Below, piece by piece: positions 3,694 through 25,706 of a stretch of DNA of 27,107 bases. Source of the stretch: a virus; IMG/VR virus record IMGVR_UViG_3300030202_001889, positions 1 through 27,107 of that record. One strand, given 5' to 3'. How positions within the stretch are numbered: the stretch's first letter is position 1; each line of letters begins with the position of its first letter. Below the pieces are notes generated by a model. That model saw nothing but the letters and a program-made list of their open reading frames with translations. It was not told the origin of the DNA and did no database searches. The position numbers were made by a program, and so were the translations under genes.

Positions 3694-3915
3694 ATGTATA
3701 AGAAATTTAAAGCATTGGGTCAATTAGGTAAGTATTTATATAATCAAGGAAAAGACTACTATAAAGCTGGTGGAAAAAAAACAAAAGATATTATGAAAGA
3801 ATCTAATGTATCTAAAGAAGTTGCTAAATCAGACATAAAATCTGAAATAAAAAGAAAATTTATTAGAGGCGGTAAAAAACCATCTGACTTTTACAAAAAA
3901 CCTAAAGGAAGATAA
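3694..3915 (+). CDS. small Lys-rich basic protein (73 aa), probably leaderless
   Basis: Not recognised. A very basic protein: a Tyr/Lys-rich N-terminal helix (YKKFKALGQLGKYLY), a GGKKTK linker and a basic C-terminus ending in KKPKGR. There is no hydrophobic membrane segment. The high charge suggests binding to DNA or RNA, or a minor virion component, but nothing specific. The stop overlaps the ATG of the small terminase gene by one base (TAATG), so the two are translated together. The only start signal is the TATAAT promoter directly upstream. Confidence 0.65.
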   Translation: MYKKFKALGQLGKYLYNQGKDYYKAGGKKTKDIMKESNVSKEVAKSDIKSEIKRKFIRGGKKPSDFYKKPKGR

Positions 3916-4445
3916 TGCCTGGTGGACTTAAAAAGAAATCACTAAGAACTGAATTAGATTTAACTCCAAAACAAAAAATGTTTGTTGAAATATATGTTAA
4001 AGATTGGGGTTCTATTACACAAGCTGAAGCGTTAAAGCGTGCAGGCTATGTGTGTACTAATGAAAAAGATTATGGATCTGTTGCATCAAGAATGTTATCT
4101 AGAAAGCACAGCCCTCATATAGCAAATTATTTTGATAAATTATTTGATCTTGAAAAAAAGAAATATGAAAGTGACAACCTTAGACGATTCAAAAGGTTAG
4201 AAAGAATTGCTGACAAAGCCGAAAAAGATAAACAATATGCTGCAGCTATAAATGCTGAGTATAGATCTGGTCAACTAGCAGGTGCTTATGTTGATAGAAA
4301 AGAGGTTACTGTTAGTGGTCTGGAGGGTATGTCACGTGAGCAACTTGAAAAAAAGCTTGAGGAATTATCAAACAAGATCGATGGCTACAATGCCAAAACG
4401 ATTGAAATTGAATCCGAAGACGTTACAGCAATTGAAGAAAGCTAG
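3915..4445 (+). CDS. terS: terminase small subunit (176 aa)
   Basis: Recognises the phage packaging site and loads the large terminase. The N-terminal part has the terminase helix-turn-helix arrangement: LTPKQKMFVEIYVKDWG (about 17-33), then ITQAEALKRAGY (34-45). Next come SRMLSRKHSPHIANYFDKL and a long charged helical oligomerisation region (KKYESDNLRRFKRLERIADK). AINAEYRSGQLAGAYVDRKEVTVSGLEGMS is the usual C-terminal stretch of this family before a coiled coil. Length is normal for the family. The identification rests on motif pattern and on the large subunit in the same genome. Unusually, the large subunit lies 3.9 kb downstream rather than next door. Confidence 0.85.
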   Translation: MPGGLKKKSLRTELDLTPKQKMFVEIYVKDWGSITQAEALKRAGYVCTNEKDYGSVASRMLSRKHSPHIANYFDKLFDLEKKKYESDNLRRFKRLERIADKAEKDKQYAAAINAEYRSGQLAGAYVDRKEVTVSGLEGMSREQLEKKLEELSNKIDGYNAKTIEIESEDVTAIEES

Positions 4446-4867: not shown

Positions 4868-5275
4868 ATGTCTAATAAAAATGGGGAAACTAGACTATGG
4901 CAAAAAGTAAAAAAAGGACTGACTGATTGCTTTCTTACCCGCATAGAATCTAGCACAATCAATGGTATTCCTGATATTCATGCTGTTACAGATTCACAGG
5001 TTTTTTGGATAGAACTTAAATCAGATTCATTAAGTTATCCTAAGCTAAATAAGTGGCAAATTGTATGGATTAACAAATATGTCATGGCAGGTGGTAAAGT
5101 AATTATCTTGAAAGAGACCCTCTTGCAGAAGTCTCTTAAACTGTACAGACCGGTGTCCGTGTTTACTGATGCTCGTTCACTGATCCCGTTTGCCTCGTTC
5201 TCGTTCCCGTTACAATGGCCAACGGTCCAGCAGCGCATGCTTCAGGAGCTGGCCCTGCCTCCGGATGCAGCCTGA
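4868..5275 (+). CDS. VRR-NUC-type nuclease (135 aa)
   Basis: Shows the compact VRR-NUC/PD-(D/E)XK pattern: an N-terminal helix (ETRLWQKVKKGL), GIPD at 33-36 carrying the catalytic Asp, then WIELKS at 47-52 with Glu49 and Lys51, and the usual C-terminal LNKWQIVWINKYVMAGGKVIIL helix-strand. VRR-NUC proteins of phages cut branched DNA or act as replication/repair nucleases. The last 40 residues (from about position 95) lie in DNA of markedly higher GC, where the CTCGTT repeats begin. They keep a family-like FTDARSL and FPLQWPTV pattern, so the reading frame seems intact. No ribosome site is visible before the ATG. Confidence 0.8.
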   Translation: MSNKNGETRLWQKVKKGLTDCFLTRIESSTINGIPDIHAVTDSQVFWIELKSDSLSYPKLNKWQIVWINKYVMAGGKVIILKETLLQKSLKLYRPVSVFTDARSLIPFASFSFPLQWPTVQQRMLQELALPPDAA

Positions 5276-5499
5276 TCCTCGTTCTCGTTCCCTGGCCACT
5301 GAACTTTTCCCTCTTTGTTTGTTCAGTGGCCTGGGATCCAGCAGCAGGTGATACAGCTCAGGTCTCGTTTCTCGTTGACAAACCTCGCTCGTTATGTGAT
5401 GACCAACTACACTGGTCCCCCATCTGCAGCTGGTGAGCTCAGGAGGCAGGTGAAGCTGTCGTTTCTCGTTCTCGTTTATGGATAAATCTCGTTCTCGTT
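5172..5499 (+). repeat. CTCGTT polar repeat cluster
   Basis: Twelve CTCGTT hexamers start at 5172, 5194, 5200, 5278, 5284, 5364, 5371, 5388, 5465, 5471, 5488 and 5494. Four pairs are exact 12-bp tandems of period 6 (5194, 5278, 5465, 5488). Six more copies follow at 5651, 5673, 6330, 6355, 6510 and 6542, and one at 7328. All are on the plus strand; I found no reverse-complement copy in the island. They fall in coding and non-coding DNA and in different frames, so selection appears to act on DNA or RNA, not protein. Confidence 0.8.
5294..5331 (+). repeat. strong 11-bp inverted repeat
   Basis: GGCCACTGAAC (5294-5304) and GTTCAGTGGCC (5321-5331) are perfect arms around a 16-nt pyrimidine-rich loop. 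Two more C-G pairs extend the stem past one T-T mismatch. A further GGCCACTG lies at 5504-5511 and an inverted CAGTGGCC at 5885-5892, so the same word is dispersed in the island. It sits 18 nt after the nuclease stop. With no T run downstream it is not a standard terminator. Confidence 0.65.
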
Positions 5500-5572
5500 C
5501 ACTGGCCACTGGTGAGCCCCCGCAGCGTGAGTTTCAGGGGGTGCTGGGATCTCCTTCGGCAAAAACTTTTGC

Positions 5573-5601
5573 TTGACTGGTATCCCATGATGTCGTATGG
5601 T
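5573..5601 (+). promoter_or_regulatory. promoter P2 with GGTATCCCAT spacer
   Basis: TTGACT (5573-5578) and TATGGT (5596-5601) are 17 bp apart. The spacer begins GGTATCCCAT and continues with TGTC, matching promoter P3 240 bp downstream almost base for base. It would give a leader of about 16 nt before the 5624 gene. Confidence 0.65.
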
Positions 5602-5623
5602 CAGACTAAACAAAGGAGAACTA

Positions 5624-5818
5624 ATGGCAATAGATTTCGATGCCCTCGATCTCGTTCGAGGAGAGAACAAAGCTCGTTCCTACAACAAGAGAGTAGATGA
5701 GCTACAGCAGCAGGTGACTGACCTTCAGGAGCTGGTAACTCAGATGGTAAAAGAACTTCCCGTGGAAAAGAAATGGTCGTTTGAAGAAAGATTAAAAAAA
5801 ATAAAAGAAAAGCCTTGA
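5624..5818 (+). CDS. small coiled-coil protein (64 aa)
   Basis: Not recognised. A heptad-like helix dominates (about residues 22-45, DELQQQVTDLQELVTQMVKE), followed by a charged tail (EERLKKIKEK). The start is the ATG behind AAAGGAGAAC; an earlier in-frame ATG at 5597 falls on the promoter -10 region and is rejected. It is the first gene of the island with its own promoter. Its stop codon overlaps the -35 box of the next promoter. A dimeric adaptor or regulator is plausible, nothing firmer. Confidence 0.7.
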   Translation: MAIDFDALDLVRGENKARSYNKRVDELQQQVTDLQELVTQMVKELPVEKKWSFEERLKKIKEKP

Positions 5819-5843
5819 CAGGTATCCCATCGTGTCTTATATA
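5815..5843 (+). promoter_or_regulatory. strong promoter P3 with GGTATCCCAT spacer
   Basis: A perfect TTGACA (5815-5820) and TATATA (5838-5843) are 17 bp apart; the spacer again reads GGTATCCCAT, two variable bases, TGTC. The transcript would have a leader of about 60 nt with an internal AGGAGG and a CAGTGGCC word before the 5913 gene. Confidence 0.7.
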
Positions 5844-5912
5844 TAGGACGCGGCCATGTTAGGAGGTAGGGAAACCGTAAACTTCAGTGGCCGTTAACCA
5901 AAGGAGAACTAC

Positions 5913-6074
5913 ATGAGCAAAGAAAAATCAATTCAAGAAACCGTCCCACACAAGGATGTCGAAGAGGCCAACAAACCTGAACCAGGAAAAATATATGCAC
6001 TGACTGGTGGACCAGGCACGCGCTGCATTGCAAACGGAAATACATGGAAAGAATCAGAGGTGAACGATGAGTGA
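5913..6074 (+). CDS. small conserved-looking phage protein (53 aa)
   Basis: A hydrophilic start (MSKEKSIQETVPHKDVEE) leads to a compact motif, KIYALTGGPGTRCIANG (26-42), with the Gly/Pro turn and aromatic strand of a small beta domain. From memory, short phage proteins with LTGGPGTR occur elsewhere in marine phages without a known role. It has a good ribosome site (AAAGGAGAAC) and is the first gene after P3. It overlaps the next gene by 8 nt. Confidence 0.7.
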   Translation: MSKEKSIQETVPHKDVEEANKPEPGKIYALTGGPGTRCIANGNTWKESEVNDE

Positions 6075-6429
6075 TGAACTGAAGGAATGGTTTCTAATGC
6101 CAAGCATAAAGGAATGCCTCGCAGAGTACGAAAAGCAGGACATAGGTTTAATTGCAGACATAGCTAAACACGGCTGTTCAGGAGGTGTCGCTGGTATTAT
6201 ATATTACGATGAAACAACTTCGTTTCATGAGCACCATCAGGAGGAGATCTGGCAACTAGTCCAGGACCACGCGGATGCAGCAGGACTGAAGAACGGTGAG
6301 TTTCTACAACACATATCGAAAGATCCAAGCTCGTTGAGGCATTTACTCAATGATCTCGTTTGGTGGGCGGTCGAAGTTCGGGCCCAAGAGCTGCACGAGC
6401 TGGTACCTGCAGCTGGAGCTGAAGCGTGA
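6067..6429 (+). CDS. DUF7222-like phage protein (120 aa)
   Basis: An acidic helical protein with a recognisable core: ADIAKHGCSGGVAGIIYYDETTSFHEHHQEEIWQ is the central pattern (about 30-63, quoted in part as HGCSGGVAGIIYY and FHEHHQEEIW). A C-terminal helix ends in WWAVEVRAQELHEL. I associate this H-G-C-G-G-I-Y-Y / F-H-x-x-E-E-I-W pattern with a phage family of unknown function (DUF7222, from memory, so tentative). The last 30 residues lie in CTCGTT-containing DNA. It overlaps the genes on both sides (8 nt and 4 nt), making an operon from P3. Confidence 0.7.
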   Translation: MSDELKEWFLMPSIKECLAEYEKQDIGLIADIAKHGCSGGVAGIIYYDETTSFHEHHQEEIWQLVQDHADAAGLKNGEFLQHISKDPSSLRHLLNDLVWWAVEVRAQELHELVPAAGAEA

Positions 6430-6527
6430 CCTTCGTTGTCGTTTGGCTGTGCCTTCTGTTTATGTTTCCCGGTTTCACATTAGCTGGGACTGGGATCCTG
6501 ATGCTCTCGCTCGTTGGTATACTTTGA
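6426..6527 (+). CDS. tiny membrane peptide (33 aa), GTG start
   Basis: GTG overlaps the previous stop (GTGA) and follows a GGAG sequence at a suitable distance. The product is almost wholly hydrophobic (VVVWLCLLFMFPGFTLAG, then ILMLSLVGIL), one or two membrane passes. The frame remains open and hydrophobic after the TGA, up to 6635, so this may be the first half of a longer membrane protein interrupted by one stop codon. Confidence 0.5.
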   Translation: MTFVVVWLCLLFMFPGFTLAGTGILMLSLVGIL

Positions 6528-6635
6528 TTCCCACATGTCGTCTCGTTTATAGAGCTGCACCCCCCTGCGCAGAAGCTACTGCTGAGTACAGGACTGGCGC
6601 TGGTAACTGCTGTGGTAAAGCTCGGTGTCGTTTGA
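6528..6635 (+). pseudogene. in-frame continuation of the membrane peptide past a TGA
   Basis: In the same frame as the 33-aa membrane peptide, 35 further codons follow the TGA at 6525 and end at another TGA (6633). They encode a short polar stretch (ELHPPAQ) and a second clear hydrophobic helix (KLLLSTGLALVTAVVKLGVV). There is no ATG, GTG or TTG near its beginning, so it could be made only by readthrough or in a relative with an intact codon. Point-mutation pseudogene, recoding and sequencing error are all possible. Confidence 0.4.
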
Positions 6636-6686
6636 AGTAATGGATAACATCTGTGTTGGATTACTATGGAGTTCCCCCCCTGCGCA
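6560..6686 (+). repeat. direct repeat CCCCCCTGCGCA
   Basis: Two exact copies of the 12-mer CCCCCCTGCGCA lie at 6560-6571 and 6675-6686, 115 bp apart, at the right edge of the GC-rich island. Direct repeats at an edge could be recombination footprints, but no partner copy is seen at the left edge. Confidence 0.55.
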
Positions 6687-6780
6687 CACAGATTACAAAC
6701 TAATAAGTTTGGTTTTTACTTTAGAATTATTCTAAAAGATAATTGTTGCGTTGATTGGTGGGATTTGATAAGAGAAGATT

Positions 6781-7284: not shown

Positions 7285-7512
7285 ATGGCTAAAGATAAAA
7301 TTAATGAGGCGACTACTGTCGCCTCGTCTCGTTCTCGTGGTGGCAAGTTTGATAAAGATAAAACTAAACAACAGCACGGCACGGCACAGGAAGAAAAAAT
7401 AATATCAATCATAAATGATAAGGACACAAATGCTTTTGGTGATTTTGCTAAATTTTTGGAAGATCAACTTAATGAATATGTTAAAAAAGAAATTAAAAAA
7501 AAGTTAAATTAA
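7285..7512 (+). CDS. hypothetical small phage protein (75 aa)
   Basis: Not recognised. A polar, low-complexity N-terminal half (Thr, Ser, Arg, Lys, Gln) with SSRSRGGK, encoded by a CTCGTT-type repeat (7324-7338), then a helical C-terminal half (FAKFLEDQLNEYVKKEIKKK). It starts at the ATG overlapping the previous stop. The TTG two codons earlier is inside the upstream gene. The repeat suggests the CTCGTT family has spread just outside the main island. Confidence 0.65.
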   Translation: MAKDKINEATTVASSRSRGGKFDKDKTKQQHGTAQEEKIISIINDKDTNAFGDFAKFLEDQLNEYVKKEIKKKLN

Positions 7513-7543: not shown

Positions 7544-7587
7544 AATAGGGTATTTATAAAAATACATAACTTAACAAAGAGGTAAAA

Positions 7588-8204: not shown

Positions 8205-8356
8205 GTATCTATCGCACACCTATAGCAAGGCTCATAATCAATCTCAAAATCGTTTTTAATTTTTACGCCATCAGGGTTCGCGTTGCTGTGCTGGGTTTTT
8301 TGAGGCGAAAGGGTTTACAAAGTAGGATATACAAATATACTAGGGTCCCAAACGAG

Positions 8357-9835
8357 ATGAAAATAGAAAACCTTACTGAAGACGAATTAAAAGACATTAT
8401 TCTGAAAAAGCAGTTGGAGTGGATCAAGTTATGCCAGGATAATTTTTTAATTTTTGCAGAGTCTGTCTGGCAAGATTTTATATATCGTAAAACAAAGGAC
8501 CCAAAGAACTATGGGCACCATCAAATTATTGCTGAAGCGTTTCAAGATATTGCAGATGGAGACGCAAAGAGGCTCGTGATCAATATGCCTCCACGTCATA
8601 CTAAATCTGAATTTGCATCATATTTATTCCCCGCTTGGTATATTGGAAAGTATCCAAAGAAAAAAATTATGCAGGTATCCCACAACGCTGAACTTGCTTC
8701 AAGGTTCGGTAGCAAAGTTAGAAATTTAATGAACACCAAGGAGTATAAAGAAATATTTGGAAATGTTACATTGAGAGAAGACAGTAAAGCAAAAGGCAGG
8801 TGGGAAACCAATCATGGTGGTGAATACTTTGCAGCGGGTGTTGGCGGATCTATCACAGGTCGAGGGGCCGATTTGCTTATTATTGATGATCCACATACGG
8901 AACAAGATTCCTTGTCGGATACAGCTATGGAACGTGCTTACGAATGGTACAGTTCAGGACCCAGACAGCGTTTACAACCCGGTGGCCGTATTCTTGTAGT
9001 CATGACTCGTTGGGCTACTGACGATCTTACAGGAAGGTTGGTAAAAGCACAGAGTGGTACTAAAGCGGATCAATGGAAAGTAATTTCATTTCCTGCAATC
9101 ATGCCTAACGATAAACCTGTATGGCCTGAGTATTGGAGTAAAGAAGATTTAGATTCTGTGAAAGCCTCAATCTCTACAAAAAACTGGAACGCACAATACA
9201 TGCAGGACCCAACCTCAGAAGAGGGTGCAATTATAAAAAGGGAATGGTGGCAAGATTATAATAAGGAGCAACTTCCAAGACTGCTCCATGTGATACAATC
9301 ATATGATACTGCATTTTCTAAAAAAGAAACTGCCGACTATTCTGCTATTACTACTTGGGGTGTCTTTGAACCTGTAGAAGGTTATGAGAAAGCAATTATA
9401 TTATTAGATGCTATGAAGGGTAGGTATGATTTTCCAGATTTAAAAAATGTTGCACTAGAGCAGTATCATTACTGGGAACCAGAAACTGTAATCATTGAAG
9501 CTAAAGCTTCAGGACAACCACTTATTCATGAACTTAGACGTGCAGGAATCCCTGTAATTGATTATGTTCCAGCTAGAGGACGAGACAAGCATACTAGAAT
9601 AAACAGTTGTGCTCCTGTATTTGAGTCTGGTATGGTGTGGGCACCTTTGGACGAACACTGGGCACAGGAGGTTATTGAGGAATGTGCAGCGTTTCCTAAT
9701 GGTCAGTATGATGACTATGTTGATTCTATGACCCAAGCTGTGTTAAGATATCGACAAGGTGGATTTGTTTCAACATATTCTGATGATTGGGATGATGAGC
9801 CAATGAAATTAGAAAAAGAGTATAAATATTATTAG
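8357..9835 (+). CDS. terL: terminase large subunit (492 aa)
   Basis: The ATPase-nuclease motor that cuts concatemeric DNA and pumps it through the portal. Residue numbers are from the ATG at 8357. The atypical Walker A box MPPRHTKSE is at 77-85, Walker B LLIIDDPH at 173-180, and a coupling motif VVMTRWATDD at 214-223. The C-terminal RNase H-like nuclease has Asp317 (SYDTAFS), Glu381 (VIIEAKASG) and the DDYVDS acidic group at 452-457. The frame is open to a GTG at 8288, adding 23 residues, but those look unlike coding sequence and the ATG is preferred. It lies 3.9 kb from the small subunit gene. The upstream hairpin may separate transcription units. Confidence 0.95.
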   Translation: MKIENLTEDELKDIILKKQLEWIKLCQDNFLIFAESVWQDFIYRKTKDPKNYGHHQIIAEAFQDIADGDAKRLVINMPPRHTKSEFASYLFPAWYIGKYPKKKIMQVSHNAELASRFGSKVRNLMNTKEYKEIFGNVTLREDSKAKGRWETNHGGEYFAAGVGGSITGRGADLLIIDDPHTEQDSLSDTAMERAYEWYSSGPRQRLQPGGRILVVMTRWATDDLTGRLVKAQSGTKADQWKVISFPAIMPNDKPVWPEYWSKEDLDSVKASISTKNWNAQYMQDPTSEEGAIIKREWWQDYNKEQLPRLLHVIQSYDTAFSKKETADYSAITTWGVFEPVEGYEKAIILLDAMKGRYDFPDLKNVALEQYHYWEPETVIIEAKASGQPLIHELRRAGIPVIDYVPARGRDKHTRINSCAPVFESGMVWAPLDEHWAQEVIEECAAFPNGQYDDYVDSMTQAVLRYRQGGFVSTYSDDWDDEPMKLEKEYKYY

Positions 9836-12466: not shown

Positions 12467-14785
12467 ATGGCAGTAGAAAAAGTAACAGAGGAATTAGCAG
12501 AAGAAGTAGTTGAGCAACCAGAAGGTCTACCTGTAGAGGTAGAAGTTGAAGGTGAAGAAGAGGTAATTGAAGAAAAACCTCAAGACGATTTTAATGCAAA
12601 CTTAGCAGAAAGCATGGACGAGCGAGAGCTTAAGGACATGGCCATGGAGCTTATTGAAGAATACAAAAAAGATAAGACATCCCGAAAAGAATGGGAAGAT
12701 GCTTACATCAAAGGTTTAGATTTATTAGGAACTAAGTACCAGGAGGTAACAAAACCATTTAAAGGAGCTTCCGGTGTCACGCATCCGTTGTTAGCTGAGT
12801 CTGTAACACAATTTCAAGCACAAGCCTATAAAGAACTTGTACCATCTGATGGGCCAGTTCGAACACAGGTCGTAGGTTTACAAACACCGGCTACCGAACA
12901 ACAAGCGGATAGAGTTAAAGATTATATGAATTACCTTCTTATGGAGGAGATGGAAGATTACACAACTGACATGGATCAGATGTTATTTTACCTACCGCTA
13001 TCTGGATCTACATTTAAGAAAATTTATTATGATGCAATGTTAGATAGACCTGTATCTAAATTTATTCCAGCAGAAGATTTAGTAGTTCCTTACTATGCAT
13101 CCGATTTGAAAGATTGTGAGAGAATAACTCACGTTATTAAAATGACACAGAACGATGTCACTAAAAAAATGGCTGCAGGATTTTATAGAGATATAGAATT
13201 AATTGATAGTAGCTCAGAACCAGATTCAGTACAGAAAAAATTAAATGAACTAGAAGGTGTAAAAGGTACTGGTTCAGATTATTTGAATACAATTCTTGAA
13301 ATGCACGTAGATTTAAATTTAGATGACTACGAGGATTTTGATGACAAAGCTAAAAAAATTAAAATTCCATACATTGTAACTATTGATGAAGGTAGTGGAG
13401 AGATTTTATCTATTTATAGAAACTACAAACCAGGTGATATGAGTTACGCAAGAACTGAATACTTTGTACACTACAAATTTTTACCAGGATTAGGTTTTTA
13501 TGGTTTTGGTTTAACACACATGATCGGTGGTTTATCACAAGCTGCAACTCAATCGTTAAGACAATTGATTGATGCAGGTACTTTAAAAAATTTACCAGCA
13601 GGATTTAAATCACGTGGCATTAGAGTAAGAGATGATGATCAACCAATTCAACCAGGAGAGTTCAGAGATGTAGATGCACCTGGTGGAAATATACGAGATC
13701 AGTTTTTTAACTTACCATTTACAGAGCCATCACCTACTTTATACAACTTAATGGGCTTTGTAGTACAAGCAGGACAGAAATTTGCAGCAATTACAGATTC
13801 AAATATTGGTAATGATGCTCAAAACAGAGCAGTTGGAACTACAATGGCGCTGATGGAAAGAGGATCACGTGTAATGAGTGGTGTTCACAAGCGTTGTTAC
13901 TACGCAATGAGACTAGAATTTAAAATTTTAGCAAGAATTTGTGGTGAATATTTACCACCAGAGTATCCTTATGATGTTTACGGTGGCCCAAGACAGATAA
14001 AACAGGCAGATTTTGATAGCAGAGTTGATATTTTACCTGTTGCAGACCCAAATATTATGTCTATGTCGCAAAGAGTGACGTTAGCACAGGCACAATTGCA
14101 AATTGCACAGTCAAATCCACAGATGCATAACTTACATGAAGCTTATAGACGTGTTTATGAAGCACTTGGAACAAAAACTATAGATCAAATTCTAAAACCA
14201 CCACCAAAACAACCTGAACCTTTAGACCCTGCAAAAGAAAACGCACGTGCGCTACAGATGAAGTTGTTAACAGCGTTTGAATTTCAAGATCACGATGCAC
14301 ATATTGCTGCTCACATGGCATTTATGGCATCAAGAATGGTGCAAATTAATCCTCAGGTGTATGCATTACTTCAATCACACATTTCTGATCACGTTTCATT
14401 CAAAGCTAAGGCACAAGTTAAGGAAATGATGATGCAAAACCCTCAAATGGTACAACTTGCTCAACAAGATCCTCAACAATTTGAAATTATGTTTGAAGCA
14501 GAAGTTGCAAAAGTTGCTGCACAGATAACACAAGAGTTAGTGAAGACTGAAAATGCTTCACAGAACAAAGAAGACCCATTAATTAAAATAAAACAACAAG
14601 AAATTGATTTAAGAGCTATGGATCTACAAAGAAAAGCAGATGAAACTAGATTTAGAGCAGAACAAGAGAATCAAAGAGCTGCTCAAAGACTTGAATTTGA
14701 TTACGATAGACTTGCAACACAAGACGCACAGTCAGATGAACGTTTAGAAATAGCGAGAGAGAAACTTGAAGCAACGAAAAAATAA
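12467..14785 (+). CDS. portal protein, P22-like (772 aa)
   Basis: Forms the dodecameric ring at the capsid vertex through which DNA is packaged. The N-terminal part contains DAYIKGLDLLG and KPFKGASGVTHPLLAESVTQF, which introduces the portal core. It is followed by DQMLFYLPLSGSTFKKIYYD and FIPAEDLVVPYYA, the characteristic wing/stem sequences of P22-type portals. The C-terminal 150 residues are Gln/Lys/Glu-rich (KQQEIDLRAMDLQRKADETR), consistent with a helical barrel. The length matches the family. The first 45 residues are strongly acidic. It is one of the most securely identified genes here. Confidence 0.92.
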   Translation: MAVEKVTEELAEEVVEQPEGLPVEVEVEGEEEVIEEKPQDDFNANLAESMDERELKDMAMELIEEYKKDKTSRKEWEDAYIKGLDLLGTKYQEVTKPFKGASGVTHPLLAESVTQFQAQAYKELVPSDGPVRTQVVGLQTPATEQQADRVKDYMNYLLMEEMEDYTTDMDQMLFYLPLSGSTFKKIYYDAMLDRPVSKFIPAEDLVVPYYASDLKDCERITHVIKMTQNDVTKKMAAGFYRDIELIDSSSEPDSVQKKLNELEGVKGTGSDYLNTILEMHVDLNLDDYEDFDDKAKKIKIPYIVTIDEGSGEILSIYRNYKPGDMSYARTEYFVHYKFLPGLGFYGFGLTHMIGGLSQAATQSLRQLIDAGTLKNLPAGFKSRGIRVRDDDQPIQPGEFRDVDAPGGNIRDQFFNLPFTEPSPTLYNLMGFVVQAGQKFAAITDSNIGNDAQNRAVGTTMALMERGSRVMSGVHKRCYYAMRLEFKILARICGEYLPPEYPYDVYGGPRQIKQADFDSRVDILPVADPNIMSMSQRVTLAQAQLQIAQSNPQMHNLHEAYRRVYEALGTKTIDQILKPPPKQPEPLDPAKENARALQMKLLTAFEFQDHDAHIAAHMAFMASRMVQINPQVYALLQSHISDHVSFKAKAQVKEMMMQNPQMVQLAQQDPQQFEIMFEAEVAKVAAQITQELVKTENASQNKEDPLIKIKQQEIDLRAMDLQRKADETRFRAEQENQRAAQRLEFDYDRLATQDAQSDERLEIAREKLEATKK

Positions 14786-14900
14786 TTCATTAAGTGGAGG
14801 AGTTAAATCTGGGCCACCGCCTAAGAGAGGACCGAATCCACAAGGAATAAAAGTTCAAGATGGCAAAAAACTCTTACGAAAGTCTTTCAGAAAAAAATAA
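14766..14900 (+). CDS. SGGVKSGPPPKRGPNPQG-type miniprotein (about 44 aa), start uncertain
   Basis: A frame open from inside the portal 3' end encodes NSLSGGVKSGPPPKRGPNPQ, a Gly/Pro/Lys-rich sequence I have seen after portal genes in related marine phages. The likely start is the TTG at 14766; no ATG exists in the open frame. Its last 14 codons overlap the beginning of the homing endonuclease gene in another frame and look unlike the first part (KKLLRKSFRKK), so the original 3' end was probably replaced when the endonuclease gene arrived. Confidence 0.5.
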   Translation: MKQRKNNSLSGGVKSGPPPKRGPNPQGIKVQDGKKLLRKSFRKK

Positions 14901-15222
14901 AATACTTTTCCTAGCTGGTCTTTTTGATGGTGAAGGAAGTTTTGGTATTTGGGGTAAGGGTAATGGAAGAAAAACATTTCAATGTGGTATTGAGATGTGT
15001 GATAAAGATATTTTAGATAGATTTTCTGATTTTTTTGGCGGTAATGTAATGAAAGTGCGAATAAGAAAGCCAAATTGGACACAAACCTGGAGATGGAGAC
15101 TATCTGGTACAAGGGCTTACGAATGTATAGATATTTTGATAGAATACATGTGTTTAAGAAGACAGGAGAAATACTATAATGTGGTTAAGCGCGATAAAAT
15201 TAGCCGTCTCTGCTGGAAGTAA
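14860..15222 (+). CDS. LAGLIDADG homing endonuclease (120 aa)
   Basis: Contains one catalytic LAGLIDADG motif, LAGLFDGEGSFGI at 18-30, with the acidic residue at its end, followed by the alpha-beta core (CDKDILDRFSDFFGG) and the TWRWRLSGTRAYECIDIL segment typical of single-motif enzymes that dimerise. It makes a site-specific double-strand break that copies the gene into homing-site-free alleles. It sits between the portal-linked miniprotein and the holin-like gene, overlapping both (41 nt upstream, 44 nt downstream), with no sign of an intron or intein. The ribosome site is poor. At 120 residues it is near the lower end of the family size, so activity is uncertain. Confidence 0.85.
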   Translation: MAKNSYESLSEKNKILFLAGLFDGEGSFGIWGKGNGRKTFQCGIEMCDKDILDRFSDFFGGNVMKVRIRKPNWTQTWRWRLSGTRAYECIDILIEYMCLRRQEKYYNVVKRDKISRLCWK

Positions 15223-15568
15223 AATATACGCTAACAAGCAGAAGACAAAAATGGCAATGTCAGAAGCACAATTGATGCATGCAACTAAGATGGCTCAAGG
15301 TGAAGAAGCTTACCAAGGTAAATTACTAGAAGCTCGTCAATCCGATTGGAAGGACGAGGCCGTACTCGTAATTCTTAGTTTGCCCGTGTTGGTGCTTGCT
15401 TGGGCAGTGATATCGGATGATCCAACTGCGATGGATAAAGTAAAATTATTCTTCGACATGTTCTCTCAACTCCCGTCATGGTTCACAAATTTGTGGATCC
15501 TTGTCGTGGCATCTATATATGGTATTAAGGGAACTCAAATCTTCAGAAACGGTGCAGGTAAGAAATGA
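15179..15568 (+). CDS. holin-like protein, GTA_holin_3TM type (129 aa)
   Basis: The N-terminal half is an Ala/Lys-rich helix (ANKQKTKMAMSEAQLMHATK); then QSDWKDE (54-60) immediately precedes a hydrophobic segment (61-79), followed by a short loop, a MFSQLPSWF element and another hydrophobic helix (about 103-118, ILVVASIYGI) leading to IFRNG. This order, including W-K-D-E before the first membrane helix, matches the 3TM holin family first described with gene transfer agents, and many marine phage homologues. The role would be timed membrane permeabilisation. Its first 15 codons lie within the endonuclease gene. The AGGAG ribosome site is good. Confidence 0.8.
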   Translation: MWLSAIKLAVSAGSKIYANKQKTKMAMSEAQLMHATKMAQGEEAYQGKLLEARQSDWKDEAVLVILSLPVLVLAWAVISDDPTAMDKVKLFFDMFSQLPSWFTNLWILVVASIYGIKGTQIFRNGAGKK

Positions 15569-15672
15569 AATATTTAGTAACAATCATTTATCATTGGTCA
15601 ACTAAATTAACTTCATGGTCTTGGACTAAATTATACGGAAACAGAACAACAGGATTAGGTTATAAAAAATGA
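15565..15672 (+). CDS. tiny Trp/Tyr-rich protein (35 aa)
   Basis: An ATGA overlap with the previous stop, a weakly amphipathic aromatic peptide (TIIYHWSTKLTSWSWTKLY), and an end, NRTTGLGYKK, resembling the GTGYK tails of miniproteins found at this spot in other marine phages. The aromatic face suggests membrane-interface binding. Function unknown. Confidence 0.65.
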   Translation: MKYLVTIIYHWSTKLTSWSWTKLYGNRTTGLGYKK

Positions 15673-15824
15673 ATCTAGATAGAGATTTAAAAGAATTAAG
15701 AAAACAGAAACAGATGAAAGATTCTGCTATCGCTCAGCTACGTAAGAGAAGCAAAGATTCAGTGGCTAGACCTAAAGCAGAAAAAAATATATTATCAACA
15801 GACCCAAGGATGCAACAGATATGA
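15669..15824 (+). CDS. tiny charged helical protein (51 aa)
   Basis: ATGA overlap at both ends. A Lys/Arg/Gln-rich helix (RDLKELRKQKQMKDSAIAQL), then a basic linker and LSTDPRMQQI at the end. No recognised domain; strict translational coupling with its neighbours supports it being a real gene. Confidence 0.65.
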   Translation: MNLDRDLKELRKQKQMKDSAIAQLRKRSKDSVARPKAEKNILSTDPRMQQI

Positions 15825-16027
15825 CAAAACTATGTGCTAGAGGCAAATCAGCTGCCAAAAGAAAATTTAAAGTTTACCCGTCTGCGTACGCAAATGCATA
15901 CGCTAGTAAAATTTGTGCAGGTAAAATAAAAGATCCATCAGGAACTAAGAAAAAAGATTGGGGACCTAAGAAAATGCGTGGTGGTGGAATAGCAATCAAA
16001 GGAACAGATTTCAAAGGCGTATTCTAA
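15821..16027 (+). CDS. conserved SAYANAYASKICAGK-type phage protein (68 aa)
   Basis: Contains LCARGKSAAKRKFKVYPSAY and NAYASKICAGKIKDPSG, a compact basic motif with two cysteines, well known by sight from marine phages and some large DNA viruses and always of unknown function. The C-terminal 12 residues, AIKGTDFKGVF, are nearly identical to the tail of the 16498 protein, including at DNA level. Very basic, so nucleic-acid binding is possible. It overlaps neighbours by 4 and 1 nt. Confidence 0.75.
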   Translation: MTKLCARGKSAAKRKFKVYPSAYANAYASKICAGKIKDPSGTKKKDWGPKKMRGGGIAIKGTDFKGVF

Positions 16028-16359
16028 TGAATAAAAAAGGTTCTTGTTGGGAAGGGTATGTCCAAAAAGGAATGAAGAAAAAAGGAAACCGTATGGTTCC
16101 TAATTGTGTGCCTGCTATGAGAACAGGTGGACTAACAAAATGGTTTAATGAAAAATGGGTAGATATTGGAGCAAAGAAAAAAGGTGGCAAGTATCAAGAG
16201 TGTGGAAGAAAATCTGCCAGTGGTTCAAAGCGGAAGTATCCGAAGTGCGTACCACTTGCAAAAGCCACAGCGATGACAAAGTCGCAAAAGGCCTCTGCTG
16301 TTGCCAGAAAGAGATCAGCAAGTAATGCAGGACCAAAACCAACTAACGTGAGGACATAA
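16027..16359 (+). CDS. basic Cys-containing phage protein (110 aa)
   Basis: Two recognisable blocks: KKGSCWEGYVQKGMKKKGNRM with VPNCVP (5-30), then a second, separate domain LTKWFNEKWVDIG, GKYQECGRKSA, YPKCVPLAKA and MTKSQKASAVARKR. The second block belongs to a small domain family of unknown function shared by phages and giant viruses (DUF6321-like, tentative, from memory). The order suggests a fusion of two miniproteins that are separate elsewhere. The paired CxxxC-type spacing hints at a metal or disulphide site. It overlaps its upstream neighbour by one base. Confidence 0.75.
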   Translation: MNKKGSCWEGYVQKGMKKKGNRMVPNCVPAMRTGGLTKWFNEKWVDIGAKKKGGKYQECGRKSASGSKRKYPKCVPLAKATAMTKSQKASAVARKRSASNAGPKPTNVRT

Positions 16360-16360
16360 A

Positions 16361-16498
16361 ATGTGGATATGGAAATGGATAAAAAAATGGTTTACTCCTA
16401 AACAGGAAGTAAAACCAGAACCTAAAAAACCTGCGATAGACTTAACAGGTCTTACTAAAGGTGATATAAAGAAATTAATCAAACAAGGAAAACTATAA
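16361..16498 (+). CDS. tiny protein with aromatic N-terminus (45 aa)
   Basis: The N-terminus WIWKWIKKWFTPK is a Trp/Lys amphipathic segment likely to lie on membrane surface, followed by a Pro/Lys linker (EVKPEPKKPA) and a short helix (LTKGDIKKLIKQGKL). Overlaps the next ATG by one base. No family recognised. Confidence 0.65.
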   Translation: MWIWKWIKKWFTPKQEVKPEPKKPAIDLTGLTKGDIKKLIKQGKL

Positions 16499-16782
16499 TG
16501 CCTAATATAAATAAATACAAAGCTCATGAAAAAATGATGCAAGATCCTGAAAGAAGAAAAGATTACATTAGAGAAAAAAAACGTCAAAAATCAGTTTCAA
16601 AAAGAAAAAAAATGCCAGCCAATGATCCAACAAAATTACCTGCTGGTTTAAAAAAAGATACAACGACAAGTGCGTATGGAGATGCAGGTAGAGGTAGACC
16701 AGTTCCTAAGTTTAATGAAGGTGGTATTTGTAGAGGTGCAGGTGCTGCAATAAAAGGCACAAATTTCAAAGGCGTTTTTTAG
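16498..16782 (+). CDS. basic phage protein with AIKGTNFKGVF tail (94 aa)
   Basis: Very Lys/Arg-rich (KMMQDPERRKDYIREKKRQK), then a Pro/Gly-rich segment (DPTKLPAGLKKDTTTS) with a RPVPKFNEGGI strand and the tail GAGAAIKGTNFKGVF. The tail repeats the end of the 15821 protein. Function unknown. It is the last of a tightly coupled miniprotein run (15565-16782). Confidence 0.7.
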   Translation: MPNINKYKAHEKMMQDPERRKDYIREKKRQKSVSKRKKMPANDPTKLPAGLKKDTTTSAYGDAGRGRPVPKFNEGGICRGAGAAIKGTNFKGVF

Positions 16783-16810
16783 TTTACAAAAATCCTAGAT
16801 AATATATAGA
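16783..16810 (+). promoter_or_regulatory. candidate promoter with leaderless spacing
   Basis: TTTACA (16783-16788) and TATAGA (16805-16810) are 16 bp apart. The -10 box ends six bases before the ATG at 16817, and there is no Shine-Dalgarno sequence, so a leaderless transcript is possible. Confidence 0.4.
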
Positions 16811-16816
16811 TTCGTT

Positions 16817-17023
16817 ATGAGTCTAAGAGCAACATTGCTACAAGCACTAGAAGATAGATATAATGCTCAAATATCTGAAGCTGATGCAACAATTCAAATA
16901 TATCTAGAAAAACCTGTAGCGATTGGTGAGCACCCACAACATTTAGAAGAGATAGATAAGCTGATTACAAAAATAGCTGAAGCAGAAGAAAAAATTGCTG
17001 TACTTCAACAATTTAAATTATGA
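16817..17023 (+). CDS. conserved small helical phage protein (68 aa)
   Basis: An amphipathic helix-turn-helix-sized protein: LLQALEDRYNAQISEADATI (7-26), then PVAIGEHPQHLEEIDKLI and a C-terminal coiled coil. From memory, the GIGEHP-x-x-x-EEIDKL pattern recurs in marine phages upstream of capsid genes. Function unknown. It has no ribosome site; see the adjoining promoter. It overlaps the next gene by 4 nt. Confidence 0.7.
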   Translation: MSLRATLLQALEDRYNAQISEADATIQIYLEKPVAIGEHPQHLEEIDKLITKIAEAEEKIAVLQQFKL

Positions 17024-20385: not shown

Positions 20386-21303
20386 ATGGCAATATCACGA
20401 TCACAACTAGTTAAAGAACTAGAGCCAGGTTTGAATGCTTTATTCGGCCTGGAATATAGTAGATACGAAAATCAGCATGCTGAAATTTTCGCTACTGAAA
20501 CATCTGACAGAGCTTTTGAAGAAGAAGTGATGTTAAGCGGTTTCGCTTCTGCACCAACTAAACAAGAAGGTGCTGGAGTAGTGTTCGATCAAGCAGGTGA
20601 AACTTTCACAGCTAGATACAACCACGAAACTATCGCTTTAGCATTTGCTATTACTGAAGAAGCGATTGAAGACAACCTATACGATAGACTTGCGGGTAGA
20701 TACACAAGAGCTCTTGCAAGATCTATGGCAAACACGAAGCAAGTTAAAGCTGCGAACATTCTAAACAATGCGCAAGTTACAACTGCTGTTGGTGGAGATG
20801 GTGAATCCCTAATCGGAAATGCTCACCCACTTGCAACAGGCGGAACTTTCTCAAACGTTTTAGCAACTGCTGCAGACCTTAACGAAACTTCACTCGAGCA
20901 GTCATTAATTGACATTGCTGGATTTGTCGATGAAAGAGGCTTAAAAATTGCTTCTTCTGGTAGAAAAATGATAATTCCAAAAGAATTACAATTTACTGCT
21001 GAGAGAATCATGAAGTCGCCAATGAGAGTTGGAACTGCCGACAATGACATCAATGCAATTAATAACATGGGAATGGTTCCTGAAGGTTACAGAGTTAATA
21101 ACTTTTTAACTGACACAGACTCATTCTTCTTGTTAACTGATGTGCCTAACGGATTAAAATACTTCGTTAGATCACCTATCAAAACTGCAATGGAAGGTGA
21201 CTTCGATACAGGTAATATGAGATTTAAAGCTAGAGAAAGATACAGCTTTGGTTGGTCAGACCCAAGATGTATATTTGGTAACGGAAACTTACCGACTAGC
21301 TAA
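20386..21303 (+). CDS. major capsid protein, Mu gpT-like (305 aa)
   Basis: Builds the icosahedral head. The N-terminal region (ELEPGLNALFGLEYSRYENQ) and the middle run of beta strands (ETFTARYNHETIALAFAITE) lead to EDNLYDRLAGRYTRALARSM, a spine-helix-like stretch. The second half has RGLKIASSGRKMIIPKELQ and the C-terminal KARERYSFGWSDPRCIFGNG, which in marine phage homologues is the conserved capsid end. The assignment to the Mu-like gpT family is from recognised pattern. Length is normal, no N-terminal protease cleavage is obvious. Followed by a strong terminator. AAAGGAG ribosome site. Confidence 0.9.
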   Translation: MAISRSQLVKELEPGLNALFGLEYSRYENQHAEIFATETSDRAFEEEVMLSGFASAPTKQEGAGVVFDQAGETFTARYNHETIALAFAITEEAIEDNLYDRLAGRYTRALARSMANTKQVKAANILNNAQVTTAVGGDGESLIGNAHPLATGGTFSNVLATAADLNETSLEQSLIDIAGFVDERGLKIASSGRKMIIPKELQFTAERIMKSPMRVGTADNDINAINNMGMVPEGYRVNNFLTDTDSFFLLTDVPNGLKYFVRSPIKTAMEGDFDTGNMRFKARERYSFGWSDPRCIFGNGNLPTS

Positions 21304-21335
21304 TAGTCAATATATTTAACCCTTAGGGTTACTTT

Positions 21336-21367
21336 AAAGGGGCGGTGTTCACATCGCCCCTTTTTTT
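21336..21367 (+). terminator. intrinsic terminator after the capsid gene
   Basis: AAAGGGGCG (21336-21344) pairs perfectly with CGCCCCTTT (21355-21363) around a 10-nt loop and continues into T residues to 21367. It is the strongest terminator in the window and lies 33 nt after the capsid stop. Confidence 0.88.
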
Positions 21368-21376
21368 ATGTATAAT
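21348..21376 (+). promoter_or_regulatory. promoter overlapping the terminator
   Basis: A -35-like TTCACA (21348-21353) lies in the terminator loop and a perfect TATAAT (21371-21376) follows 17 bp later, just after the T run. The start would be near 21383, so the same short segment ends one transcript and starts the next. Confidence 0.5.
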
Positions 21377-25010: not shown

Positions 25011-25706
25011 ATGGCAACTTCAGGGACTACGACATTTGATCTATCAATAGAAGAAATAATACAAGAAGCCTACGAAAGATGTGGCATGGCTACAACAAGT
25101 GGTCATAGTTTAAGATCTGCAAGAACAAGTCTTAATTTATTGTTTGCTGAATGGGCTAACCGAGGTATTCATTTATGGAAGGTGGCCTTAAACGAGAAAC
25201 AATTAGTATCTGGACAAGCAAACTATACAGTAGATGGAAATGTTAGTGACGTACTCGAAGCTTTTGTGTCTACAACTGCTGCTGCTTCTAATTCAGTAAA
25301 TACACAAGATGTTGCATTAACAAAAATAGATAGATCTGCATATTCTGCATTACCTAATAAATTAGCTTTGGGACAACCATCTCAATATTATGTGGATAGA
25401 CAAGACACACCTGTAATATATTTATACCAAGCACCAGATTTAAACACATATACTTATTTGAAATATTATGTAATTAAAAGAATTGAAGATGCAGGATCTT
25501 ACACTAATGATGCTGATGTAGTGTTTAGATTTTTACCATGTATGGTAGCAGGACTTGCTTATTATTTAGCTATGAAAAACGCACCTCAATTAGTTCAACA
25601 AAATAAATTAATTTACGAGGATCAATTAAAAAGAGCTCTAGATGAAGATGGACAAAGAGCTTCAACTTATATTACTCCTCAATCATTTTATTATAATGGA
25701 ATTTAA
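25011..25706 (+). CDS. probable head-tail connector or stopper-like protein (231 aa)
   Basis: Starts TTTFDLSIEEIIQEAYERCG, an amphipathic helix seen at the N-terminus of P22 gp4-like DNA-stabilisation or connector proteins, then ARTSLNLLFAEWANRGIHLW, beta strands (YTVDGNVSDVLEAFVST), and a Tyr/Phe-rich C-terminal helix bundle (RFLPCMVAGLAYYLAMKNAP, QLVQQNKLIYEDQLKRAL). It is followed by the adaptor gene. Taken together it likely closes the portal vertex after packaging. The P22 gp4 comparison is by pattern, moderate confidence. Confidence 0.7.
   Translation: MATSGTTTFDLSIEEIIQEAYERCGMATTSGHSLRSARTSLNLLFAEWANRGIHLWKVALNEKQLVSGQANYTVDGNVSDVLEAFVSTTAAASNSVNTQDVALTKIDRSAYSALPNKLALGQPSQYYVDRQDTPVIYLYQAPDLNTYTYLKYYVIKRIEDAGSYTNDADVVFRFLPCMVAGLAYYLAMKNAPQLVQQNKLIYEDQLKRALDEDGQRASTYITPQSFYYNGI

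Follow-up and report, generated by a model that had tools for sequence, protein, structure and literature searches.

A polar CTCGTT array between the terminase genes of HTVC023P-type phages: a candidate structured antisense regulatory RNA

Introduction

What does a short repeat, confined to one strand, do in a GC-rich island of an otherwise AT-rich phage genome? The question is raised by a 27,107-base sequence from an uncultured virus in IMG/VR (record IMGVR_UViG_3300030202_001889; this whole stretch is the window below), in which the hexamer CTCGTT crowds an island between the terminase genes terS and terL, with its start in the last part of a small nuclease gene. A first-pass annotation of the letters had read the hexamer as a signal at the DNA or RNA level, counted protein-binding RNA sites among its possible roles and taken the GC jump as a hint of acquired DNA. 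Comparison with related phages leads us to conclude that this ocean bacteriophage probably encodes a regulatory RNA of its own in the island, which would then not be foreign DNA. To the specific reading of a structured antisense regulatory RNA, in which CUCGUU would provide protein-binding sites, we assign a probability of about 0.5.

Results

A one-stranded array with a covarying hairpin

On the plus strand of the window CTCGTT occurs 20 times, with 18 copies in the island (5172-6547), 12 of these in its dense first part (Table 1) and two copies outside, at 7328 and 9006. The island holds four exact tandem dimers and no reverse-complement copy; all four reverse-complement copies of the window lie elsewhere. 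The recount agrees with the first-pass annotation on these numbers, on the lack of reverse copies, on the dimers of period 6 and on the outside copies, which it had placed at 7328 and about 9005; its contrast of 65% GC in 5221-5280 against 27% in 25561-25620 also holds, the window having 36.2% GC and the segment 5150-6700 having 49%. When the island itself is used to train Markov models, the 18 copies are in excess at order 1 (0.34 expected, at most 3 in 2000 runs) and at order 2 (2.6 expected, at most 11 in 2000 runs), but at order 3, where the model largely stores CTCGTT itself, they are not unusual (11.8 expected, at most 25 in 1000 runs).

Within the dense array lies a hairpin whose stem covaries. 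In an alignment of 40 of the 46 listed hairpins, two-sided changes are found at 14 of the 15 pairs, and 96.9% of the cells are paired, compared to 74.9% after shuffling and less than 50% with slid partners. Since a G-U pair becomes A-C when the opposite strand is read, the wobble pairs of 62 distinct rows, counted in a fixed alignment itself fitted to the covariance model R1, show an asymmetry pointing to plus-strand RNA: there are 61 G-U (75 expected by shuffling) and 2 A-C (29 expected), after dropping 18 R1 matches in which hairpins already counted had been read backwards. Free registration of the arms was uninformative (G-U to A-C 30:9, versus 70-77 to 25-33 with swapped arms).

R1 finds the hairpin in 102 of the 123 unique islands, 92 in a set of 97 and 10 in a set of 26, once per locus and on the nuclease strand in all 92 of the former set. 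Several observations weigh against a hairpin RNA. R1 was built from these same loci, and most of its matches are partly by construction. The other 21 islands have a CTCGTT array without an R1-detectable hairpin, so the array does not need it. The whole 401-nt island does not fold unusually well on the plus strand (z -0.93, 18 of 100 shuffles as low) and has z -2.04 on the minus strand. Throughout, the compared rows are related sequences, and shuffle or permutation counts are not probabilities. When R1 was run on 48 sources including other nuclease clades, those clades gave only weak matches (E value 0.03 or worse), and in Rfam 15 the island had no match at E values up to 5 and none at gathering score; the two weak matches in the window, both at 21231-21375, lie outside it.

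The hairpin loop mirrors a ribosome-binding leader

The loop of the hairpin is polypyrimidine, about UUUUNCCUCUUUGUUAGUU, with a consensus of about UUUUNCCUCUUUGUUAG that, reversed and complemented, reads as the ribosome-binding leader of the downstream gene 7588 (TTAACAAAGAGGTAAAAATG). This leader is the longest exact reverse-complement match of the loop on its locus in 72 of 84 loci when ties are included, and in 58 of 84 when the first longest word alone is taken; the control counts at the same leader were 0 for the sense loop, 0 for the reversed loop, 4 for the complement only and 1.8 for shuffled loops. The longest match spans 17 nt (L047). Loops match their own leaders over 11.4 nt, compared to 10.5 nt when permuted, with 0 of 2000 permutations as high among 62 distinct combinations, and in some loci a divergent leader is accompanied by a correspondingly divergent loop (AACAAAAAGGA in L144 and L192, AACTAACAAAGG in L214, CAAACTAACAAAGAGG in L212). 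The 7588 leader also contains a hairpin of its own that shows compensating changes: 61 of 93 distinct leaders have it, in 8 different stem sequences, versus 13 of 1860 shuffled ones. The 7588 protein gave weak Pfam and PHROGs matches only (E value 0.02 or worse) and none in PADLOC or NCBIfam.

By exact matching, the loop appears complementary to a translation-initiation region in a lineage-matched manner, but duplex energies and one group of loops count the other way. When all stretches are ranked by energy, the 7588 leader comes first in 23 of 69 pairs and falls in the top 1% in 43 of 69. For the phage studied here, 12 of 1343 other stretches equal or exceed its pairing with the loop, and for this reason the loop may have several Shine-Dalgarno sites as its targets. 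In six loci with AACTAAG loops (L032, L137, L153, L179, L185 and L193) the leaders are unmatched at the changed bases. The loop pattern is missing from 28 of the 123 islands, seven of which are still matched by R1.

The energy ranking would also suit an RNA in which CUCGUU serves as a sponge or scaffold that titrates or gathers one RNA-binding protein, the hairpin being a spacer and the loop a generic anti-Shine-Dalgarno sequence. Arrays without a hairpin in 21 islands, early genes that carry the same motif, and numerous short sites at a 6-7 nt spacing, which we infer to be close for binders of double-stranded DNA, are all consistent with a sponge; exact complementarity that singles out one leader in most loci, over as many as 17 nt, is not, and we consider this explanation unlikely, if worth keeping in view.

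We also considered the leader of terL as a target of the CUCGUU repeats, as AACGAG, at 8351, precedes its start. This candidate was rejected: CTCGTT is retained in relatives with AACGGT at this place (for example L143), and CAAGC is missing beside the start in the HTVC027P-like leaders compared. A separate observation on the same leader is that GGGTCCC stands immediately 5′ of the TerL start (8341-8356) in the clade of the window and GGGGACCC in relatives of phage HTVC023P, possibly a late promoter or operator element.

The hexamer is kept in early genes

Beyond the dense array the motif recurs inside small early genes, where it is read in more than one frame. In the small open reading frame (ORF) that is the first gene after a promoter-like sequence, the residues DLVR are encoded with CTC GTT in every one of 67 contexts from 71 distinct sequences, CTC making up 168 of the 540 leucine codons of this ORF overall; the next site, in another frame, reads GCT CGT followed by TCC, TCT or TCA in 41 of 45 ARS contexts. 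The DLVW of the DUF7222 gene has CTC in 45 of 48 contexts and the full CTCGTT in 32 of 48, and SSRSR in ORF 7285-7512, just upstream of gene 7588, is encoded as TCG TCT CGT TCT CG(T/G) in 26 of 26 contexts (31 distinct sequences). The codon contexts, too, come from related sequences. Because CTC GTT persists at places that synonymous codons could equally fill, these data suggest selection on the nucleotide motif beyond that on the protein. They bear out the first-pass view of a polar, clustered signal at the nucleic-acid level that runs through coding and non-coding DNA. As to its guess of protein-binding RNA sites, the RNA half gains support from the covarying hairpin, the wobble asymmetry and the antisense loop, and a protein partner is what we infer.

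A promoter-like sequence with consensus TTGACAnnTATCCCATGATGTCGTATGGT lies 3′ of the array in 115 of the 123 unique islands, and the array mostly stops there: CTCGTT density is 25 per kb ahead of it and 4 per kb past it, within 1400 bases. The spacers of the two promoter-like sequences of the window share a recurring word, TATCCCAT (in TTGACAnnTATCCCATGATGTCGTAT; at 5581 and 5823). By eye, similar words stand between terS and terL in phages HTVC027P and 023Pt_psg01 (L365 and L366), and the word may be an operator of an early regulator.

The array is conserved and syntenic

All 38 relatives found through TerL carry at least five CTCGTT copies within 500 bases upstream of TerL; this tally covers relatives with at least 4.5 kb of upstream sequence and represents 38 distinct upstream sequences. 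We read prevalence from this set only, because 47 of the 123 unique islands had been fetched by the CTCGTT pattern itself, the rest coming from DUF7222 or TerL searches and from the window. In a scan of genome contigs with the array pattern, most of the matches listed look unrelated by title. Across the 123 islands, the first 400 bases after the nuclease hold 24 CTCGTT per kb forward and 0 in reverse, compared to 0.27 and 0.23 per kb outside the islands, so the two strands are about equal elsewhere and far from equal where the motif is clustered; over 1400 bases, 121 islands have no reverse copy and two have one. The commonest gaps between copies are 6 nt (362 cases) and 7 nt (127 cases), and by eye the clusters are spaced about 80-100 bases apart. 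Copy number and order are preserved among loci whose nucleases are 47-100% identical.

By these counts, uncultured phages related to HTVC023P share the array as a conserved feature in synteny. Because it is syntenic in 38 of 38 relatives, recent import is unlikely and the island would be an old resident. Mean GC in the 400 bases after the nuclease is 52%, with a minimum of 44%, versus a mean of 35% outside; since all 123 islands are GC-rich, the GC jump has lasted in this lineage and plausibly reflects RNA structure. The earlier suggestion of acquired DNA is not supported by these two results.

Related nucleases are followed by other repeats

The array begins within the last codons of the nuclease gene, where the first CTCGTT cluster encodes Ser-Phe-Ser-Phe. 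The nuclease is a PD-(D/E)XK-like protein with a weak likeness to archaeal Hjc and related nucleases (Pfam Hjc E value 0.0053, below the curated cut-off; E values of 0.008-0.009 against nuclease and Hjc chains of the PDB with a four-sequence profile); it also matches PHROG 2165 and 93, and its GxPD...ELK residues are invariant among four aligned sequences. No PADLOC or NCBIfam match was found at an E value of 0.01, and the protein was not recognised as a ToxN-like endoribonuclease.

In a survey of 406 records for this locus, 358 had a nuclease match and 335 of them at least 500 bases downstream. Where the nuclease is nearest to that of the window, CTCGTT or an overlapping word is the top hexamer in 181 of 183 loci. 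The motif is also present in five loci whose nuclease is nearest to, though among the more distant from, that of HTVC023P (L142, L168, L170, L203 and L216; 50-67% identical), but the majority of HTVC023P-like nucleases are followed by different and weaker repeats in which no hexamer dominates. By eye, some of these phages (L364, 14887-15100, and related loci) have words like TTGAGA...AACAACGAAA three times after the nuclease, in units that vary among relatives.

In the HTVC027P clade, a homologous nuclease is followed by a polar GCTTG array. Among 64 unique loci that offered 600 bases, 63 had at least six GCTYG copies, the single miss being L439 and phage DSL-LC04 (L367, 0 copies) being excluded; the commonest spacing is 7 and the reverse median 0. 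One of the 64 loci, 023Pt_psg01, has GCTC/GCTT runs, with GCTC microsatellite-like. In DSL-LC04 itself, GC reaches 0.69 between terL and terS (14500-17000), against a mean of 0.52 in the 50 kb read; from this phage, a GC island at this locus may reach past the pelagiphages.

HTVC023P and HTVC027P share the host strain HTCC1062, and neither has a CTCGTT array, with 0 forward copies in the first 50 kb of the HTVC023P record and 3 scattered ones in that of HTVC027P. A host-determined motif, such as a Chi-like sequence or the site of a host protein, was therefore disfavoured, and the array motif seems to belong to the phage lineage.

The sister arrays bear on three further explanations. The first is a DNA-level signal, either a pac or cos site for packaging initiation or a replication origin, bound by TerS or an initiator. 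The location between terS and terL and the short, polar, lineage-specific repeats are as such a signal would have them, and pac of phage P1 is likewise built on hexamers. In HTVC027P, the GCTTG array overlaps an opposite-strand gene and keeps to the nuclease/TerL strand though several of the small genes between lie on the other, an arrangement that would fit a DNA role as well. The wobble asymmetry and the conservation of an unpaired loop speak for RNA, however, and by eye there is no evident pile-up at the island of the upstream ends of contigs with TerL; we regard a DNA signal as distinctly unlikely. The second is a pair of nuclease and repeat RNA of the type III toxin-antitoxin kind, the RNA restraining the neighbouring nuclease. 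A polar array follows a homologous nuclease in both the CTCGTT and the GCTTG clades, but the nuclease resembles Hjc-type DNA nucleases and has no PADLOC match, the array is downstream of it and partly coding, and most loci with an HTVC023P-like nuclease are without a strong array, which leaves this pairing very improbable. The third is neutral low-complexity expansion by slippage or gene conversion. Such an expansion, consistent with the tandem dimers and the GCTC runs of 023Pt_psg01, would hardly account for the near absence of reverse copies, for copy number and order kept across such divergent nucleases, or for hairpin covariation and codon constraint, and we give it very little credence.

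The phage and its genome

The window and Pelagibacter phage HTVC023P share 69.7% identity in TerL (100% of the query covered) and 42.7% in the nuclease. Both phages have the order TerS, small ORF, nuclease, TerL, with two extra genes ahead of the nuclease in HTVC023P; likeness of TerS and of the small ORF was judged by eye only. On homologous TerL and similar gene order, we class the window phage as HTVC023P-type, and by analogy with HTVC023P its host would be Pelagibacter (SAR11). Features of the locus are listed in Table 1.

Elsewhere in the window, a ParB-like gene is found at 1179-1967 (PHROG 12305, E value 2.8e-26), and an ORF at 14860-15222, after a large ORF at 12467-14785, contains LAGLFDGEGSF, which looks like the motif of a LAGLIDADG homing endonuclease. 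In HTVC027P (L365, 17753-17873) and in 4 of 13 other loci searched (L369, L371, L373 and L380), 90-97-bit matches to the 'Flavobacterium-1' RNA (Rfam RF02976) indicate that this family occurs in pelagiphages.

Table 1. Coordinates of features in the window
Feature	Position	Strand	Remarks
Source sequence	27,107 bases		uncultured IMG/VR virus record
terS, terminase small subunit	3915..4445	+	Pfam Terminase_2 E 7.2e-7; PHROG 51
Small PD-(D/E)XK-like nuclease gene	4868..5275	+	weak Hjc likeness
Island CTCGTT copies (starts)	5172, 5194, 5200, 5278, 5284, 5364, 5371, 5388, 5465, 5471, 5488, 5494, 5651, 5673, 6330, 6355, 6510, 6542	+	
Dense CTCGTT array	5172..5499	+	12 copies
Covarying hairpin inside the array	5281..5342	+	model R1, 71.5 bits
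Hairpin loop UUUUCCCUCUUUGUUU	5305..5320	+	part-complementary to gene 7588 leader
Promoter-like sequence, consensus TTGACAnnTATCCCATGATGTCGTATGGT	5573..5601	+	conserved; follows the array
Small ORF, 64 amino acids	5624..5818	+	first gene after promoter; CTCGTT at 5651, 5673
Second promoter-like sequence	5815..5843	+	same type, TTGACA-17-TATATA
DUF7222 gene	6067..6429	+	Pfam PF23864 E 1.1e-14; CTCGTT at 6330, 6355
Final two CTCGTT copies of the island	6510..6547	+	
Mini-array CTCGTCTCGTTCTCGTG	7323..7339	+	early in ORF 7285-7512, which lies directly before gene 7588
Leader hairpin of gene 7588	7550..7565	+	GTATTT-ATAA-AAATAC
Ribosome-binding leader TTAACAAAGAGGTAAAA	7571..7587	+	proposed target of the hairpin loop
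Gene 7588, 107 amino acids	7588..7911	+	proposed regulated gene; no confident family
terL, terminase large subunit	8357..9835	+	PHROG 38 E 2.3e-119

Discussion

The reading that we prefer is that of a structured antisense RNA. The island would be transcribed in the plus direction, giving an RNA with the long hairpin and its polypyrimidine loop as the core and many CUCGUU copies in the flanking linkers. The loop would pair with the ribosome-binding leader of gene 7588 and lower its translation, and CUCGUU would be the single-stranded binding site of a putative RNA-binding protein. Since the mRNA just upstream of 7588 also has CUCGUU repeats, this protein possibly joins the array RNA and the 7588 mRNA. 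A broader proposal, which we hold to be unlikely and offer tentatively, is a new class of phage riboregulator: a nuclease-linked, polar array RNA whose motif of 5-6 nt is specific to the lineage (CTCGTT, GCTTG or GCTCG) and whose place is kept, with one phage protein reading both array RNA and early mRNAs and so matching loop to leader.

Antisense RNAs that pair a loop with a ribosome-binding site are known, among them CopA/CopT, lambda OOP and trans-acting small RNAs. The RNA proposed here is similar in the complementarity of a hairpin loop to a ribosome-binding leader and in some lineage-specific matching of loop and target. Unlike these, it would have on its flanks a large, polar array of CUCGUU with its beginning in a nuclease gene, and it is on the same strand as its proposed target, about 2.2 kb away. 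In CsrB-type RNAs, GGA is repeated in hairpin loops, and CsrB titrates CsrA. With the CsrB/RsmZ sponges, the island has in common many copies of a short motif around hairpins and the presence of this motif in neighbouring genes; it differs in that its main motif is CUCGUU (12 copies in 5172-5572, against 6 of GGA; AGGA occurs 19 times in 5150-6700, loop placement lying outside these counts), in the added antisense loop and in a binding protein that is putative. The short, near-regular repeats recall the (G/U)AG repeats bound by TRAP and would fit a multi-subunit RNA binder, but motif and spacing are different, and no TRAP-like gene was recognised, none having been searched for by name.

Among DNA elements, P1 pac hexamers and lambda cosB are also short repeats near terminase genes, but the evidence here is for RNA. 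The GCTTG array of HTVC027P and the repeats of HTVC023P share the position after a homologous nuclease and, in the GCTTG case, the polarity; they differ in motif, and R1 found no equivalent hairpin in the loci searched. With type III toxin-antitoxin systems (ToxIN) the likeness is a nuclease gene beside a repeat RNA, and nuclease family, gene order and repeat size are different. The CTCGTT array is not mentioned in the available parts of the literature on HTVC023P-type phages, including PMC9599517 and PMC12753301, a silence that is not proof of its being unpublished.

A conserved RNA element beside the packaging genes would be a handle on the regulation of small genes in these phages. The island also suggests that a GC-rich stretch in an AT-rich phage can mark RNA structure and not acquired DNA.

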